From contig NZ_JAMXRZ010000040.1 of the NCBI RefSeq assembly GCF_024124375.1, forward strand, positions 1 through 33,029: a stretch of 33,029 bases of DNA, given 5' to 3'. This stretch comes from Klenkia sp. PcliD-1-E. Its GTDB lineage: Bacteria; Actinomycetota; Actinomycetes; Mycobacteriales; Geodermatophilaceae. Below the pieces are notes generated by a model that was given only the letters and a program-made list of their open reading frames with translations, made no database searches and was not told where the DNA came from. Positions 26,892 through 31,147 of this stretch are shown here, piece after piece; position 1 is the first letter of the stretch, and each line of letters starts with the position of its first letter. The position numbers and the translations under genes were made by a program.

Positions 26892-26955
26892 CCGCCCTGG
26901 CCCACGCCGTGACGGGGGGCAGGGGGCGCGCCCCGGTGGGTGGAGCCGCTGCGCG

Positions 26956-27885
26956 TCAGTCGCGGCGCACCAGCTCCGCGCGGCGCTCGGCCTCCAGGCG
27001 CCGTGCGGCCTCGACCGACTCGGCCTCGGTGTCGGCGCGGTATTGCTTCCACGACCAGGCGACGGCGCCGGCCCAGCCGAGCACGACCACCGCGTACACC
27101 GGCCAGCGGACCGCGTCGGCGACCTCGAAGACGGCGAACAGCGACCGGGTGTTGGTGAACACGATGATCCCGCCGACGGCGGAGCCCAGCAGCCGCGGCG
27201 GCACGTGCCGGACCAGCCAGGCGGCGATCGGCGCCGCGACCAGGCCACCGGCGAGCAGACCGAGCACCCACACCGGGTCGATGCCCTGCGAGCCCAGGGC
27301 CAGCAGGAACGCGACCGAGGCCGAGGCGGAGACCAGGAACTCCGCGGTGTCGATCGAGCCGATCACCCGGCGTGGCTCCATCCGGCCGCTGGCCAGGATC
27401 GCGGGGGTGCCGACCGGGCCCCACCCGCCGCCGCCGGTGGCGTCGACGAACCCGGCGAACAGGCCGAGCGGGACGAGGAAGCGGCGGCGCATCGGCTTGC
27501 CCAGGTTCTGCCGGTTCAGCCCGCGCACGGTGAAGCGGACCAGCACGTAGAGGCCCAGCGCCAGCAGGACGGTGTTCATCAGCGGGGCGGCGACCGAGGT
27601 GTCCAGCGAGGACAGGAACGTGGCGCCGGCCGCGGCGCCGGCCGCCCCCGGCACGCCGACCTTCAGCACGACCCGCCAGTCGACGTTGCCGAAGCGCCAG
27701 TGCGCGACGCCGGAGGCGAGGTTGGTGCCGATCTCGGCGAGGTGGGCGGTGGCCGAGGCGGCGGCCGGGCCGGCGCCGACGGCCAGCAGCAGCGTCGTCG
27801 AGGTGACGCCGTAGCCCATGCCGAGGCTGCCGTCGACGAGCTGGGCGCCGAGGCCCACCAGGGCGAACAGGACGAGGGTGCGCAC
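26956..27885 (-). CDS. Sulfite exporter TauE/SafE family (TSUP) membrane protein
   Basis: 309 residues from GTG 27883-27885, with GGAG (27893-27896) seven bases upstream. About eight TM segments. The N-terminal VGLGAQLVDGSLGMGYGVTSTTLLLAVG and the SATAHLAEIGTNLASGVAHWRFGNVD stretch, repeated in the second half (LFAGFVDATGGGGWGPVGTPAILASG), are the TauE/SafE pattern. The family exports sulfite, sulfoacetate and related anions or imports sulfur compounds. The upstream cysteine-containing leader peptide supports a sulfur role and control by sulfur status. The C-terminus after the last TM is a charged coiled region (SWKQYRADTEAESVEAARRLEAERRAEL). It could also transport other organic anions. Confidence 0.9.
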   Translation of the reverse strand: MRTLVLFALVGLGAQLVDGSLGMGYGVTSTTLLLAVGAGPAAASATAHLAEIGTNLASGVAHWRFGNVDWRVVLKVGVPGAAGAAAGATFLSSLDTSVAAPLMNTVLLALGLYVLVRFTVRGLNRQNLGKPMRRRFLVPLGLFAGFVDATGGGGWGPVGTPAILASGRMEPRRVIGSIDTAEFLVSASASVAFLLALGSQGIDPVWVLGLLAGGLVAAPIAAWLVRHVPPRLLGSAVGGIIVFTNTRSLFAVFEVADAVRWPVYAVVVLGWAGAVAWSWKQYRADTEAESVEAARRLEAERRAELVRRD

Positions 27886-27986
27886 GATGGATCTCCAGGC
27901 AGGAGTGAAGCGGTCGGGGAGGCCCCCGGCCGCGCACCCGCGCCGGGGTCAGGGCGGTGCCGTGGAGGACGGGGCCCTGGAGGACG
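27886..27986 (-). promoter_or_regulatory. Leader RNA between leader peptide and TSUP gene
   Basis: A 101-nt untranslated spacer. CTCCAGG, formed from 27976-27982 on the minus strand four bases after the leader peptide stop, is complementary to CCTGGAG (27893-27899), which contains the TSUP Shine-Dalgarno. A CCCCGGC/GCCGGGG hairpin can form between them. This arrangement could hide the ribosome-binding site depending on leader translation. It is a reading of complementarity only; no folding was computed. Confidence 0.4.
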
Positions 27987-28082
27987 TCAGCGGGCCGGAC
28001 AGGCCGCGGTCGTGACGCGCGCGAGGTCGACGTGGATCCGGCCCACCAGGTAGTTACCCGGGAGCGGGCGGGACGTCGGCAC
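27987..28082 (-). CDS. Cysteine-containing leader peptide upstream of TSUP gene
   Basis: A 31-codon ORF, GTG 28080-28082 to TGA 27987-27989. Its second half contains GRIHVDLARVTTAACPAR, matching the actinobacterial leader-peptide pattern R-x-HVDL-x-RV-x-TA-x-C found before sulfate, thiosulfate and cysteine-related genes, where translation of the Cys codon is thought to sense cysteine supply. The single Cys is four codons before the stop. A -10-like TAGACA (28091-28096) ends 8 nt before the GTG, so the mRNA would begin at or next to the start codon (leaderless). An internal GTG at 28044-28046 would give 19 residues. The TSUP transporter starts 101 nt downstream. The family match is from memory of its consensus. 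Confidence 0.75.
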   Translation of the reverse strand: MPTSRPLPGNYLVGRIHVDLARVTTAACPAR

Positions 28083-28090
28083 GGATACAA

Positions 28091-28111
28091 TGTCTACCAG
28101 TCCGATGGACT
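28091..28111 (-). promoter_or_regulatory. Promoter with operator-like palindrome for the leader/TSUP unit
   Basis: A -10-like TAGACA (28091-28096) and, just upstream in the -35/-10 spacer, a perfect dyad AGTCC-GAT-GGACT (28099-28111). The dyad overlaps the stop codon of the MFS gene (28110-28112). A regulator bound there would block RNA polymerase. No standard -35 is visible, so an activator is also possible. The regulator is unknown. Confidence 0.45.
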
Positions 28112-29510
28112 AAGTAGTGAGTGGCTGTCCCATCTGCTGGGACGGCCGCAGCGTGACCAGCGACACCAGGCCCCCGGCGACCAGCAGGACGGCGCACAGC
28201 CGCATGGCCAGCGCGTAGCCGTCGGTGAACGCGTCGGGCCGGGCGTAGTCGTCGCCGGACAGGCCGACCGCCAGCGGCAGCGCGGCGACGGCGAGCAGCT
28301 GCGCGGCCCGGGCGACGGCGTTGTTCACCCCGCTGGCCACCCCGGCGAGCCGGTCGGGGGCGGCGTCGAGGACGGTGGCCGTCAGCGGCGCGACGGTCAG
28401 CGCCATGCCGAGGCCGAACAGCACCGACCCGGGCAGCACCGCGGTGGCCCAGCGGGACCCGGCGTCGACGAAGGACAGGTAGGCCACCCCGGAGGCGGCC
28501 ACCAGCGGGCCGACCGTCATGGGCAGCCGCGGCCCGGTGCGGGCCGCCAGCGCGCCGGCCCGGGGCGAGAGCAGCGAGATGAGCAGGATGGAGGGCACCA
28601 CGGCGGCACCGGCGGCCAGCGCGTCGTAGCGCAGCACGGTCTGCAGCTGCAGCACCAGGAAGAACGACATCCCGCCCAGCGCCCCGTAGACGGCCAGCGT
28701 GGTCAGGTTGGCCCCGCTGAACCGGCGGTCGGCGAAGACGCCCAGCGGCAGCATCGGGTCCGCCGCCGTCCGCTCGCGGACCAGGAACCCGGCGGCCGCG
28801 GCCACCCCCACCGCCAGGGCCACCCAGGTGCCCGGCCCGCGGCCGGCGTCGATGAGCGCGTAGGTCGTGCCGCCCAGCGCCAGGGCGGCCAGCGCCGACC
28901 CGGCGACGTCGAACCGGCCGCGGTGGCCCTCGTCGCGGCTCTCGGGCACGTGCCGCAGCGAGACCGCGACGACGGCGACCGCCAACGGCACGTTGATCAG
29001 GAACACCCATCGCCAGCTCACAGAGTCGACCAGGAAGCCGGCGAGGAACGGCCCACCCAGCCCGGCGATCCCGCCCAGCCCCGACCACAGCCCGATCGCC
29101 CGGCCGCGGTCGGCGTGGGCGAAGGAGGCCTGGATGATCGACAGCGACCCGGGCACCAGCAGCGCCCCGCCGATGCCCTGCAGCACGCGGGCGGCGACCA
29201 GCAGACCGGTCGAGGGTGCCAGCCCGCACAGCAGCGACGTGGCGGCGAACCACACGACGCCGACCAGGAACACCCGGCGCCGGCCGAACCGGTCGCCCAG
29301 CGCCCCGCCGAGCAGGATCAGCGCGGCCAGCGCCAGGGTGTAGCCGGTGACGGTCCACTGCAGACCCGACAGCGAGGAGTCCAGCTCCCGGCCGATGGTG
29401 GGCAGCGCGACGTTGACGGCGGTGGAGTCCAGGAACGCCATCGCCGAGGCCAGCACCGTCGCCAGCAGCGTCCAGCGGGCCGGCGTCGTCCCCAACCGGA
29501 GCTCGGGCAC
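28110..29510 (-). CDS. DHA2-family (EmrB/QacA) MFS drug exporter
   Basis: 466 residues from GTG 29508-29510, with CAGGAG seven bases upstream. About 14 hydrophobic segments. N-terminal AFLDSTAVNVALPTIGRELDSSLSGLQWTVTGYTLALAALILLGGALGDRFGRRRVFL is the DHA2 signature, including motif D1 (LDSTAVNVALP) and motif A (GALGDRFGRRR); ARVLQGIGGALLVPGSLSII is motif B/C. The family is an H+ antiporter exporting drugs, dyes or metabolites. It follows the phosphate transporter gene by 10 nt, so it is probably in the DUF47-pit transcript, an unusual companion. No TetR gene adjoins it, although DHA2 pumps often have one. The last codons contain a hairpin (28123-28147). Confidence 0.9.
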   Translation of the reverse strand: MPELRLGTTPARWTLLATVLASAMAFLDSTAVNVALPTIGRELDSSLSGLQWTVTGYTLALAALILLGGALGDRFGRRRVFLVGVVWFAATSLLCGLAPSTGLLVAARVLQGIGGALLVPGSLSIIQASFAHADRGRAIGLWSGLGGIAGLGGPFLAGFLVDSVSWRWVFLINVPLAVAVVAVSLRHVPESRDEGHRGRFDVAGSALAALALGGTTYALIDAGRGPGTWVALAVGVAAAAGFLVRERTAADPMLPLGVFADRRFSGANLTTLAVYGALGGMSFFLVLQLQTVLRYDALAAGAAVVPSILLISLLSPRAGALAARTGPRLPMTVGPLVAASGVAYLSFVDAGSRWATAVLPGSVLFGLGMALTVAPLTATVLDAAPDRLAGVASGVNNAVARAAQLLAVAALPLAVGLSGDDYARPDAFTDGYALAMRLCAVLLVAGGLVSLVTLRPSQQMGQPLTT

Positions 29511-29520
29511 GTGTCTCCTG

Positions 29521-30522
29521 TCAGCCGACGATCGCGTGCACCACGTAGTAGACGCCCGCGGCCACGGCGCCCGCGGCCGGGAGGGTCAACACCCAGGCCA
29601 CGACGATGTTCCCGGCCACGCCCCAGCGCACCGCCGACAGCCGGCGGGTGGCGCCGACGCCCATGATCGAGGTGGTGGTGATGTGCGTGGTGGACACCGG
29701 GACGGCGAACACGGTGGCGGTGGTGACCATGACCGCGGAGGCCACGGTCTGCGCGGAGAACCCGCCGGCCGGGGTGAGCTGGATGATCCGGCGGCCCAGC
29801 GTGCGCATGATCCGGAACCCGCCGGCGTAGGTGCCGGCGCTGATCGCCAGCGCGGCGGCGAGGATGACCCAGAACGGGACCTCGAAGGTGTCGATCTGCC
29901 CGGCGGTCACCAGGGCGAGGGTGATGATGCCCATCGTCTTCTGCGCGTCCTGCAGGCCGTGGCCCAGCGCCATGGTCGCGGAGCTGACGATCTGGGCGTA
30001 CCGGAACCCGCGGTTGGCCCGGGTGACGTTGGCGCCCCGGAAGGACCACAGGATGGCCAGCATGAACAGGTAGCCCAGCCCGAACCCGACCAGCGGCGAG
30101 AGCACCATCGGGACGACGACCTTCTCCACGATGCCCATCCACTGCACGGAGTGGACGGCGGCCAGCGCGGCGCCGACCAGCCCGCCGATGAGGGCGTGCG
30201 AGGAGGAGCTGGGCAGCCCGAAGTACCAGGTGATCAGGTTCCAGGTGATCGCGCCGACCAGGGCGGCGAACACGATCTGCAGCCCGCCGCCCCCCTCGGG
30301 GGTGTCGATGATCCCCGCCCCCACGGTCTTGGCGACCTCGGTGGAGATCAGCGCGCCGACCAGGTTCATCACCGCGGCCAGCGCGAGGGCGACCTTCGGT
30401 GTCAGCGCCTTGGTGGAGACCGCGACGGCGATCGAGTTGGCGGCGTCGTGGAACCCGTTGGTGTAGTCGAAGGCCAGCGCGACGACGACGATGACGACCA
30501 TCGCCAGGAAGAGCCCGTCCAC
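29521..30522 (-). CDS. pit: PiT family inorganic phosphate transporter
   Basis: 333 residues from GTG 30520-30522. PiT duplicated signatures are clear: FDYTNGFHDAANSIA (19-33) near the N-terminus and its counterpart GHGLQDAQKTMGI in the middle. GLPSSSSHALIGGLVGA and the matching PVSTTHITTTSIMGVG lie in the two halves. About 10 TM segments. It imports phosphate, usually as a metal-phosphate complex, with H+. It starts 7 nt after the DUF47 gene, the standard pit-accessory pair. The Shine-Dalgarno is weak, so translation may be coupled to the upstream gene. The MFS exporter follows by 10 nt. Confidence 0.94.
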   Translation of the reverse strand: MDGLFLAMVVIVVVALAFDYTNGFHDAANSIAVAVSTKALTPKVALALAAVMNLVGALISTEVAKTVGAGIIDTPEGGGGLQIVFAALVGAITWNLITWYFGLPSSSSHALIGGLVGAALAAVHSVQWMGIVEKVVVPMVLSPLVGFGLGYLFMLAILWSFRGANVTRANRGFRYAQIVSSATMALGHGLQDAQKTMGIITLALVTAGQIDTFEVPFWVILAAALAISAGTYAGGFRIMRTLGRRIIQLTPAGGFSAQTVASAVMVTTATVFAVPVSTTHITTTSIMGVGATRRLSAVRWGVAGNIVVAWVLTLPAAGAVAAGVYYVVHAIVG

Positions 30523-30529
30523 GATGGGG

Positions 30530-31147
30530 TCAGGACTCCTTGACCGCGATGGTCTCGACGACGTTGGCCACGTGCTCGAAGGCGTCGGCGGCCTCCTCGA
30601 GCTGGTCGGCCACCTCCTTGAGCTTGAGGATCTCCAGGGCGTCGAACTCCCCGGAGTACAGCCGGGAGAGCAGCCGGCGGTAGAGCTTGTCCGCCTCGTT
30701 CTCCAGGCTGTTCACCTCGATCCAGTAGTCCGACAGCCCCTTCATCGCCTTCAGCCGCGGCATCGCGTCCGCGGTGACCTGCGCGCAGCGCTGCAGGAGG
30801 GCGACCTGCTGGCCCATCTCGGCGGGCAGCGTGCCCAGCCCGGTGAGGACGACGAGGTCGGCGGCGGCCTCGATGGCGTCCATGACGTCGTCCAGGTCGC
30901 TGGCCAGGGCGTAGATGTCCTCCCGGTCGAACGGGGTGACGAAGCTGGAGTTCAGCTGTCGGAAGACCGCGTGCGTGGCGTTGTCGCCCTTGTGCTCCAG
31001 GTCGCGCAGGGTGCGGGCGAGCTCGTCGCGCCGGAGGTGGTCGTGCAGGAAGTCGCCGAGGACCCCCGTCGCCTCGACGAGGTTGACCGCCGAGGCGGTG
31101 AACATGTCGTAGAAGCTCGAGTCCTTGGGCGTCAGGCTGAAGGGCAC
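30530..31147 (-). CDS. DUF47 (PhoU-like) Pit accessory protein
   Basis: 205 residues from GTG 31145-31147, all alpha-helical. DUF47/PhoU_div features: LTPKDSSFYDMF at the start, LRDLEHKGDNATHAVFRQLNSSFVTPFDREDIYALASDLDDVMDAIEAAAD (the E-x3-D and D-x3-D metal-binding helices), and SLENEADKLYRRLL with KEVADQLEEAADAFEHVANVVE in the second helical repeat. Such proteins regulate Pit activity from the cytoplasmic side, probably through bound metal. There is no Shine-Dalgarno; a -10-like TAGGCT (31154-31159) ends 6 nt before the GTG, so the operon mRNA is probably leaderless. A PHO-box-like repeat lies just upstream. Confidence 0.93.
   Translation of the reverse strand: MPFSLTPKDSSFYDMFTASAVNLVEATGVLGDFLHDHLRRDELARTLRDLEHKGDNATHAVFRQLNSSFVTPFDREDIYALASDLDDVMDAIEAAADLVVLTGLGTLPAEMGQQVALLQRCAQVTADAMPRLKAMKGLSDYWIEVNSLENEADKLYRRLLSRLYSGEFDALEILKLKEVADQLEEAADAFEHVANVVETIAVKES

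Follow-up and report, generated by a model that had tools for sequence, protein, structure and literature searches.

What is a reading frame of 31 codons, with a single cysteine codon near its end, doing immediately in front of a transporter gene in Klenkia sp. PcliD-1-E, and does it control that gene? The locus lies within a stretch of 33,029 nucleotides (the whole of this stretch is called the window here). Its features, in the direction of transcription, are as follows.

28110-29510, minus strand: MFS efflux gene of the DHA2 type, upstream of the leader, its stop codon inside the leader's promoter element
28089..28114, minus strand: 26-nt promoter/operator element, made up of a palindrome and a -10-like sequence and overlapping the MFS stop codon
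28094-28108, minus strand: imperfect palindrome CCATC-N5-GGTAG, overlapping the -10-like sequence
28090-28096, minus strand: -10-like sequence TAGACAT, 7 nt upstream of the GTG
27987..28082, minus strand: leader peptide ORF, GTG start, 31 codons, TGA stop at 27987-27989
28017..28034, minus strand: H-V-D-L-A-R core of the leader
27999..28001, minus strand: the leader's only Cys codon (TGT), eight residues past the L of VDL
27976-27982, minus strand: CTCCAGG, complement of the Shine-Dalgarno sequence, just past the leader stop and overlapping hairpin H1
27924..27979, minus strand: region of hairpins H1 and H2, between the leader stop and the TSUP gene
27974-27979 and 27950-27955, minus strand: arms of H1, read by eye from the sequences
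27924-27948, minus strand: H2, from pair counts in nine Klenkia-type sequences
27893..27896, minus strand: GGAG, Shine-Dalgarno sequence of the TSUP gene
26956..27885, minus strand: TSUP (TauE/SafE) transporter gene, CysZ-like, 309 aa (PF01925 TauE, E=4.1e-41)

The translation of the leader ORF, MPTSRPLPGNYLVGRIHVDLARVTTAACPAR (31 aa), is matched by the NCBIfam model NF042934 ('putative leader peptide', cis_reg_atten) at 30.6 bits, against a curated cut-off of 27 (E=1.7e-7), the aligned part being residues 12-28 (profile positions 3-19 of 19); in a six-frame search the same leader scores 29.4 bits, also over the cut-off. Its stop is followed by 101 nt and then by the GTG of the 309-aa TSUP ORF on the same strand. 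The first-pass annotation had described just such a 31-codon ORF 101 nt before a TauE/SafE gene, and the reading frame and its NF042934 and PF01925 matches confirm this; it had further regarded the peptide as unannotated and too short for normal gene calling, a detail in need of correction, since the family has an NCBI model and leader peptides of this kind can therefore be annotated. In Pfam the peptide matched nothing at E<=1, and Rfam gave nothing above any gathering score over 26900-28700 (a single chance-level match had E=0.14). The related model NF042936 (Ms4527A) scored 17 bits against the window leader, below its cut-off of 45.

Three further places in the 4.5-Mb genome of this strain (G000), searched in six frames, match NF042934 at E<=1e-3, the window's leader alone exceeding the cut-off. 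All four leaders are directly 5' of sulfur-related genes: the TSUP gene of the window; a sulfite/nitrite reductase (NirA-like) gene, then CysH; a cysteine-dioxygenase-like gene (PF05995), then rhodanese; and DUF4395 with rhodanese. Together with the above-cut-off match, this supports the earlier assignment of the peptide to an actinobacterial leader family tied to sulfur genes. The NirA-CysH leader is part of a single row (L012:6055-9754, contig C181) of Rrf2 regulator, APS kinase, leader, NirA-type reductase and CysH, which is likely to be a control centre for sulfate assimilation in G000. The leader before the cysteine-dioxygenase-like gene and rhodanese (L010:2850-4019, contig C111) reads MTYSLALHRRSAVDLLRVASALCPGC, and its target is a strange one for a cysteine-starvation signal; the leader before DUF4395 and rhodanese (L011:438-1855, contig C125) has three Cys residues, TVDLCRLGSCLC. 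More widely, matches at E<=1e-3 were present in 55 of 60 genomes searched (the window's included) and in none of 14 control genomes; at E<=10, ten of the controls had matches, none of them over the cut-off.

The association with TSUP genes is conserved. When 41 genomes were searched for TSUP, 21 had matches, comprising 23 loci with the window's own, and in the window genome and its relatives the leader lies 5' of TSUP, 69-102 nt upstream, at 19 of the 23 (it is absent at L028, L034, L035 and L036). A second set was made up of named TSUP loci, the best 80 among the matches listed, of which 78 were parsed (not L126 and L173); the leader search model applied to it was built mostly from the 19 leaders of the first set, and one locus, L110 (E=0.12), was scored as leader-less. 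In these best 80 among the matches listed, the leader was found at 32 of the 78 parsed loci: at 29 of 30 in Geodermatophilaceae (Klenkia, Modestobacter, Blastococcus and Geodermatophilus), the sole exception, L118, being a MAG, and at 3 of 48 outside the family (two Gordonia, one Piscicoccus). A search for the same peptide upstream of orthologous TSUP genes had been proposed in the first-pass annotation as a check, and these two counts, 19 of 23 and 29 of 30, bear the proposal out. The leader was also present at five of 20 hand-picked TSUP loci from three other families of the same order. The leaders of the Gordonia and Piscicoccus loci (L131, L143 and L151) differ in their cores (IVDLLRVASMLC or TVDLLRVASMLC, and TVDLLRVASALC) and lack the palindrome; these differences suggest that leader and TSUP gene may have been joined more than once.

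Which parts of the peptide are kept? The D, L and R of the core occur in all of 33 leaders compared (three from G000, the others from the 30 best-match loci in the genome survey, their targets looked up for part of them), and all 33 have a Cys eight residues beyond the VDL leucine, an invariance that is partly due to selection of the set, as D and R (not Cys) were demanded in parsing and the finding profile favours Cys. In the same leaders the distance from VDL to the end varies from 8 to 18 residues, and 21 of the 33 have one Cys from the core onward. The Geodermatophilaceae TSUP leaders are more uniform: in all 48 of them (29 named and 19 of the first TSUP set, without L131, L143 and L151) the stop is at a constant distance from the H of HVDL, and in all 42 distinct ones a Cys codon (TGT or TGC) stands three residues before the stop. 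Among 36 distinct core sequences, 61.5% of the single-nucleotide codon differences are synonymous in frame, versus 26% and 11% for the two shifted frames, and from this excess it follows that the leader peptide is under selection. The window leader has one Cys codon and no run of contiguous Cys codons, and the comparison suggests a nascent chain that would act at a constant spacing from a single Cys codon.

The explanation that we consider likely is that this NF042934 leader acts in cis to control a CysZ-like TSUP gene, probably for a sulfate importer, by means of a pause at cysteine and an RNA switch, with an Rrf2-type layer in addition. We infer that the transcript would begin at or beside the GTG, given the position of the -10-like element, and that a shortage of cysteine or Cys-tRNA would make the ribosome pause at the single Cys codon, a pause probably aided by the conserved VDLxR segment inside the exit tunnel; the RNA downstream of the paused ribosome would then refold, leaving the TSUP ribosome-binding site open. 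With ample cysteine the leader would be completed and the ribosome-binding site would remain closed. The TSUP product would most likely import sulfate for cysteine synthesis, and a separate layer of control would probably be exerted by an Rrf2 (CymR-like) repressor at the palindrome over the promoter. Several observations count against this explanation, among them that the Cys codon is single, that one leader of the genome has the cysteine-dioxygenase-like target, that G000 has a SulP-family gene, and that the leader is missing from 45 of the 48 parsed named loci outside Geodermatophilaceae (of the best 80 among the matches listed).

The RNA between leader and TSUP gene was compared in three groups set by hand, 26 sequences of Blastococcus/Geodermatophilus type, nine of Klenkia type (including L099, labelled Modestobacter sp. 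Leaf380) and seven of Modestobacter type; all the p-values given here are optimistic, as the sequences are related. Hairpin H2 is conserved in the Klenkia-type group, with 97.6% of cells paired and both partners changed at three of its ten pairs, and its covariation score was reached by three of 500 shuffles. The Shine-Dalgarno sequence is predicted to be more closed than in shuffles in the 42 distinct sequences (unpaired 0.074 vs 0.125, p=5e-4). If the stretch covered by a ribosome stalled at Cys is masked, the site is predicted to open more than in shuffles in the 26 Blastococcus/Geodermatophilus-type sequences (p=0.003); the predicted opening is not clear in the seven of Modestobacter type (p=0.11), and none is predicted in the nine of Klenkia type, the window's own group (mean change 0.002, p=0.82). 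For all 42, the Cys-stall mask gave p=6e-4 against no mask and p=0.051 against an equal mask placed in the gap. In predicted folds of the Blastococcus/Geodermatophilus type, the last codons of the leader and its stop often pair with the Shine-Dalgarno and start region.

We also considered whether pairing between the end of the leader and the ribosome-binding site might serve as covariation proof, which was not reached. Own partners paired better than swapped ones over all 42 sequences with p=0.0006, a value confounded by relatedness (the first version gave p=0.07), and within clades no value was significant: p=0.13 (Klenkia), 0.54 (Modestobacter) and 0.08 (Blastococcus/Geodermatophilus). The stretch past the stop, taken alone, did worse than swapped (p=0.90), and the test is unspecific, as one control region within the leader reached p=0.007. 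That a ribosome stalled at Cys would free the ribosome-binding site is thus predicted for Blastococcus and Geodermatophilus and not for the window's own genus. Of the interpretation in the first-pass annotation, the peptide family and its conserved placement stand, the sulfur transporter is very likely, and the response to cysteine is still a prediction.

Might the same leader work at the level of transcription instead? Quick completion of the leader would then expose C-rich, G-poor RNA to Rho, so that the TSUP gene is not reached, and a paused ribosome would block Rho. In each of the three groups C outweighs G in the gap (mean C 0.51-0.55, G 0.26-0.30, with 0.375 and 0.372 for the window overall), and a scan of 27700-28300 for intrinsic terminators gave no such site, which together leave room for Rho-dependent attenuation; this would suit the Klenkia group, where the translational model yields no release, and Rho has been suggested for mycobacterial cys leaders (PMC1262725). 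However, the excess of C over G is stated against the window average, not against other intergenic regions of these genomes, and the gap holds stable hairpins, one of them with compensatory changes. On balance we regard control through Rho as unlikely, though it is the alternative to be taken most seriously.

What does the transporter carry? The window TSUP is 84% identical to its K. taihuensis homologue (among the best 80 of the matches listed). A further 24 genomes were searched and 20 TSUP loci compared, all hand-picked, and in three small-genome relatives (G233, G259 and G279; loci L265-L267) the only close TSUP homologue, at 44-52% identity, lies in a cluster with NirA and CysH. By Pfam and NCBIfam the order in G233 (L265) is sulfite/nitrite reductase, CysH, CysD, CysN, CbiX-like and TSUP, a cluster of CysI-H-D-N-Y-Z type with the TSUP homologue last, corresponding to the cysIXHDNYZ operon of Corynebacterium glutamicum (CysX was not part of the comparison). 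CysZ of that operon is described as a high-affinity sulphate transporter, mutants in which fail on sulphate below 5 mM and on sulphite, though not on thiosulphate (PMC1266029). CysZ is placed in the TSUP family, in which, however, sequence alone is considered insufficient to tell function (PMC5840216). The likeness of the window protein to CysZ consists in family, length (309 aa in both) and the gene context of its homologues in relatives; the window gene differs in standing apart from cys genes, with a leader and promoter element of its own. In agreement with an earlier statement that no sulfate assimilation genes are near, a Pfam scan covering 17 of the 29 genes called in the window gave none.

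Sulfate ABC permeases point the same way: no TIGR00969 match exceeded the cut-off in 25 genomes of the window's family (some of them incomplete), and the three of the 41 genomes that have such a permease are all without a TSUP match. G000 also has a SulP-family gene, so the TSUP protein may not be the sole route for sulfate. A search of solved structures by sequence gave no TSUP relative (the best match, E=0.025, was an unrelated enzyme). The window protein is very likely to be a transporter of some sulfur compound, as had been predicted, and, given the homologue in the G233 cluster, it is probably a CysZ-like sulfate importer. Two genes away, at 29521-31147, the window has a PHO4-family transporter and an adjoining PhoU_div/DUF47 gene; this transporter probably carries phosphate, and the PHO4 family is said also to include CysP sulfate permeases (PMC5840216).

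Alternatively, the TSUP protein may export sulfite or organosulfonates, or carry some other anion, in which case the leader would answer to sulfur excess. The name of PF01925 refers to sulfite exporters, and the cysteine-dioxygenase-like gene, whose pathway can yield sulfite, bears a leader of the same kind; but the company kept by the only close homologues in the three small-genome relatives, and the distribution of the TIGR00969 permeases, argue against export, which seems to us rather improbable.

The 26-nt element upstream of the leader adds a further dimension. Across the listed loci it consists of an imperfect palindrome, CTACC-N5-GGTAG, and TAGACAT or TAGGAAT ending 5-7 nt before the start codon, a spacing that leaves no room for a Shine-Dalgarno site; the earlier description of the leader as leaderless-looking is therefore a fair one. 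A scan of 27700-28300 for sigma-70-type promoters, however, found none. The window element is the best matrix site in the window, at 40.7 bits (the matrix itself includes the window site), and the right half-site pattern is present at 28 of the 29 named Geodermatophilaceae leader loci (from the best 80 TSUP loci among the matches listed). The exact palindrome pattern occurs at ten places in nine genomes of the genus, eight of them at TSUP leaders; in the matrix search of these nine, 150 first-look candidates per genome were scored, so weaker sites may be missed. In distant genomes the matches to the pattern look like chance, and a reversed control pattern matches too.

There are sites elsewhere too. 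At L185 (G005, contig C12) a strong leader (32.7 bits) and the same palindrome precede a gene with an FAD-NAD(P)-binding domain; at L067/L186 (G001, contig C6) the palindrome is flanked by a winged-helix gene, itself preceded by a leader, and a divergent gene for a luciferase-like monooxygenase; and there are further sites in G002 (L076) and in G016 (L090, beside a cysteine-dioxygenase-like gene). The idea that the palindrome is a general promoter of the leader family was rejected, the three other leaders of G000 being without a comparable site in the loci scanned (L011 has a weak palindrome site of 8.3 bits, away from its leader).

Who might bind the palindrome? An Rrf2 gene adjoins TSUP at 15 of the 80 named loci (the best 80 among the matches listed), at L036 and at four of the 20 later loci, and none of these Rrf2-adjacent loci has a leader. 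Matrix sites scoring above 7 lie upstream of 17 of 19 Rrf2-adjacent TSUP genes (13 of 15 named, of the best 80 among the matches listed, and all four later ones), compared with 13 of 33 other named TSUP loci outside Geodermatophilaceae (same best 80 among the matches listed) and about 1% of shuffled upstream regions; in Nonomuraea the site at an Rrf2-adjacent TSUP gene reads like ATTCCTACTTGTATAGTAGGAAT. Conversely, at the eight TSUP loci outside Geodermatophilaceae that do have a leader, the site is absent (none above 7 at L131, L143 and L151, and all five hand-picked loci below 0). Judged by these sites, putative operator and leader are separate elsewhere and combined in Geodermatophilaceae, and the position of the palindrome on the promoter suggests that a protein provides an additional layer of control. 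In G000 the related Rrf2 gene adjoins APS kinase and the leader-NirA-CysH group, and we infer that its product may bind the window palindrome, though a matrix scan gave no good palindrome site near the gene itself. The arrangement recalls regulators of the CymR/Rrf2 type, a candidate for which has been reported for cysteine metabolism in Rhodococcus (PMC8557817), in that an Rrf2 gene stands beside TSUP at those 15 of the best 80 named loci among the matches listed and beside cys genes in G000; it differs in that the regulator of the window palindrome is a candidate, proposed from gene adjacency and matrix sites.

It could then be argued that the conserved element is chiefly promoter and palindrome, that an Rrf2-type repressor controls TSUP, and that the peptide adds little. 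The half-site in nearly all the Geodermatophilaceae leader loci, the sites at Rrf2-adjacent TSUP genes and the position of the G000 Rrf2 gene would all fit. Yet the peptide is under coding selection, with its Cys in a fixed position, eight TSUP genes outside the family have the leader and lack the site, and the G000 Rrf2 gene has no site of its own, so we think it distinctly improbable that the repressor is the whole story. That the ORF is a functionless product of chance, short as it is and in GC-rich DNA that yields many ORFs, is hardly credible in the face of its conservation, its coding selection and an NF042934 match above the cut-off.

How does a leader with a putative pause at cysteine, ahead of a CysZ-like gene, relate to what has been described? 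Canestrari's paper of 2020 is reportedly a key one on the mycobacterial leaderless cysteine sORFs. Attenuation has been proposed for these (Seliverstov, 2005, PMC1262725; Shell, 2015, PMC4633059), with Rho as a proposed agent in the first of these papers, and cysteine genes of M. smegmatis are said to undergo translation attenuation (PMC13236596). The window leader resembles them in being short and leaderless-looking, with Cys near its end, a sulfur gene downstream and no clear terminator; they differ in being described with runs or clusters of Cys, whereas the window leader has one. It is above the curated cut-off of NF042934, a model that is silent on target and mechanism, the target here being a TSUP transporter gene. 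With actinobacterial cysteine leaders already known from several sources (PMC1262725, PMC4633059, PMC9031893, PMC9094748, PMC13236596), the window leader belongs to a known kind of cysteine-linked switch and is no new kind. Among the literature matches listed there was no paper on an NF042934-type leader before a TSUP gene; new with respect to those matches are the family-wide TSUP/CysZ-like target, the Rrf2-associated palindrome, and the fixed spacing of VDLxR and Cys that hints at arrest.

This last point leads to a more tentative suggestion, which we put forward as a possibility in which our confidence is less than even: that the peptide is an arrest peptide and not a codon-counting attenuator, the pause at a single Cys being brought about by the nascent chain and, in Geodermatophilaceae, stacked on an Rrf2-type operator in the control of a CysZ-like importer. 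The reason for it is that the spacing from D-L-x-R to the invariant Cys is fixed, while the number of additional Cys residues and the distance to the stop vary. For the biology of the group, the locus would link the TSUP transporter of a whole actinobacterial family to cysteine supply, with sulfate import as the job to which the sequences point; and this family of leaders, which often have one Cys, at a set spacing from a conserved segment, may detect cysteine through arrest of the nascent chain and not by counting codons.
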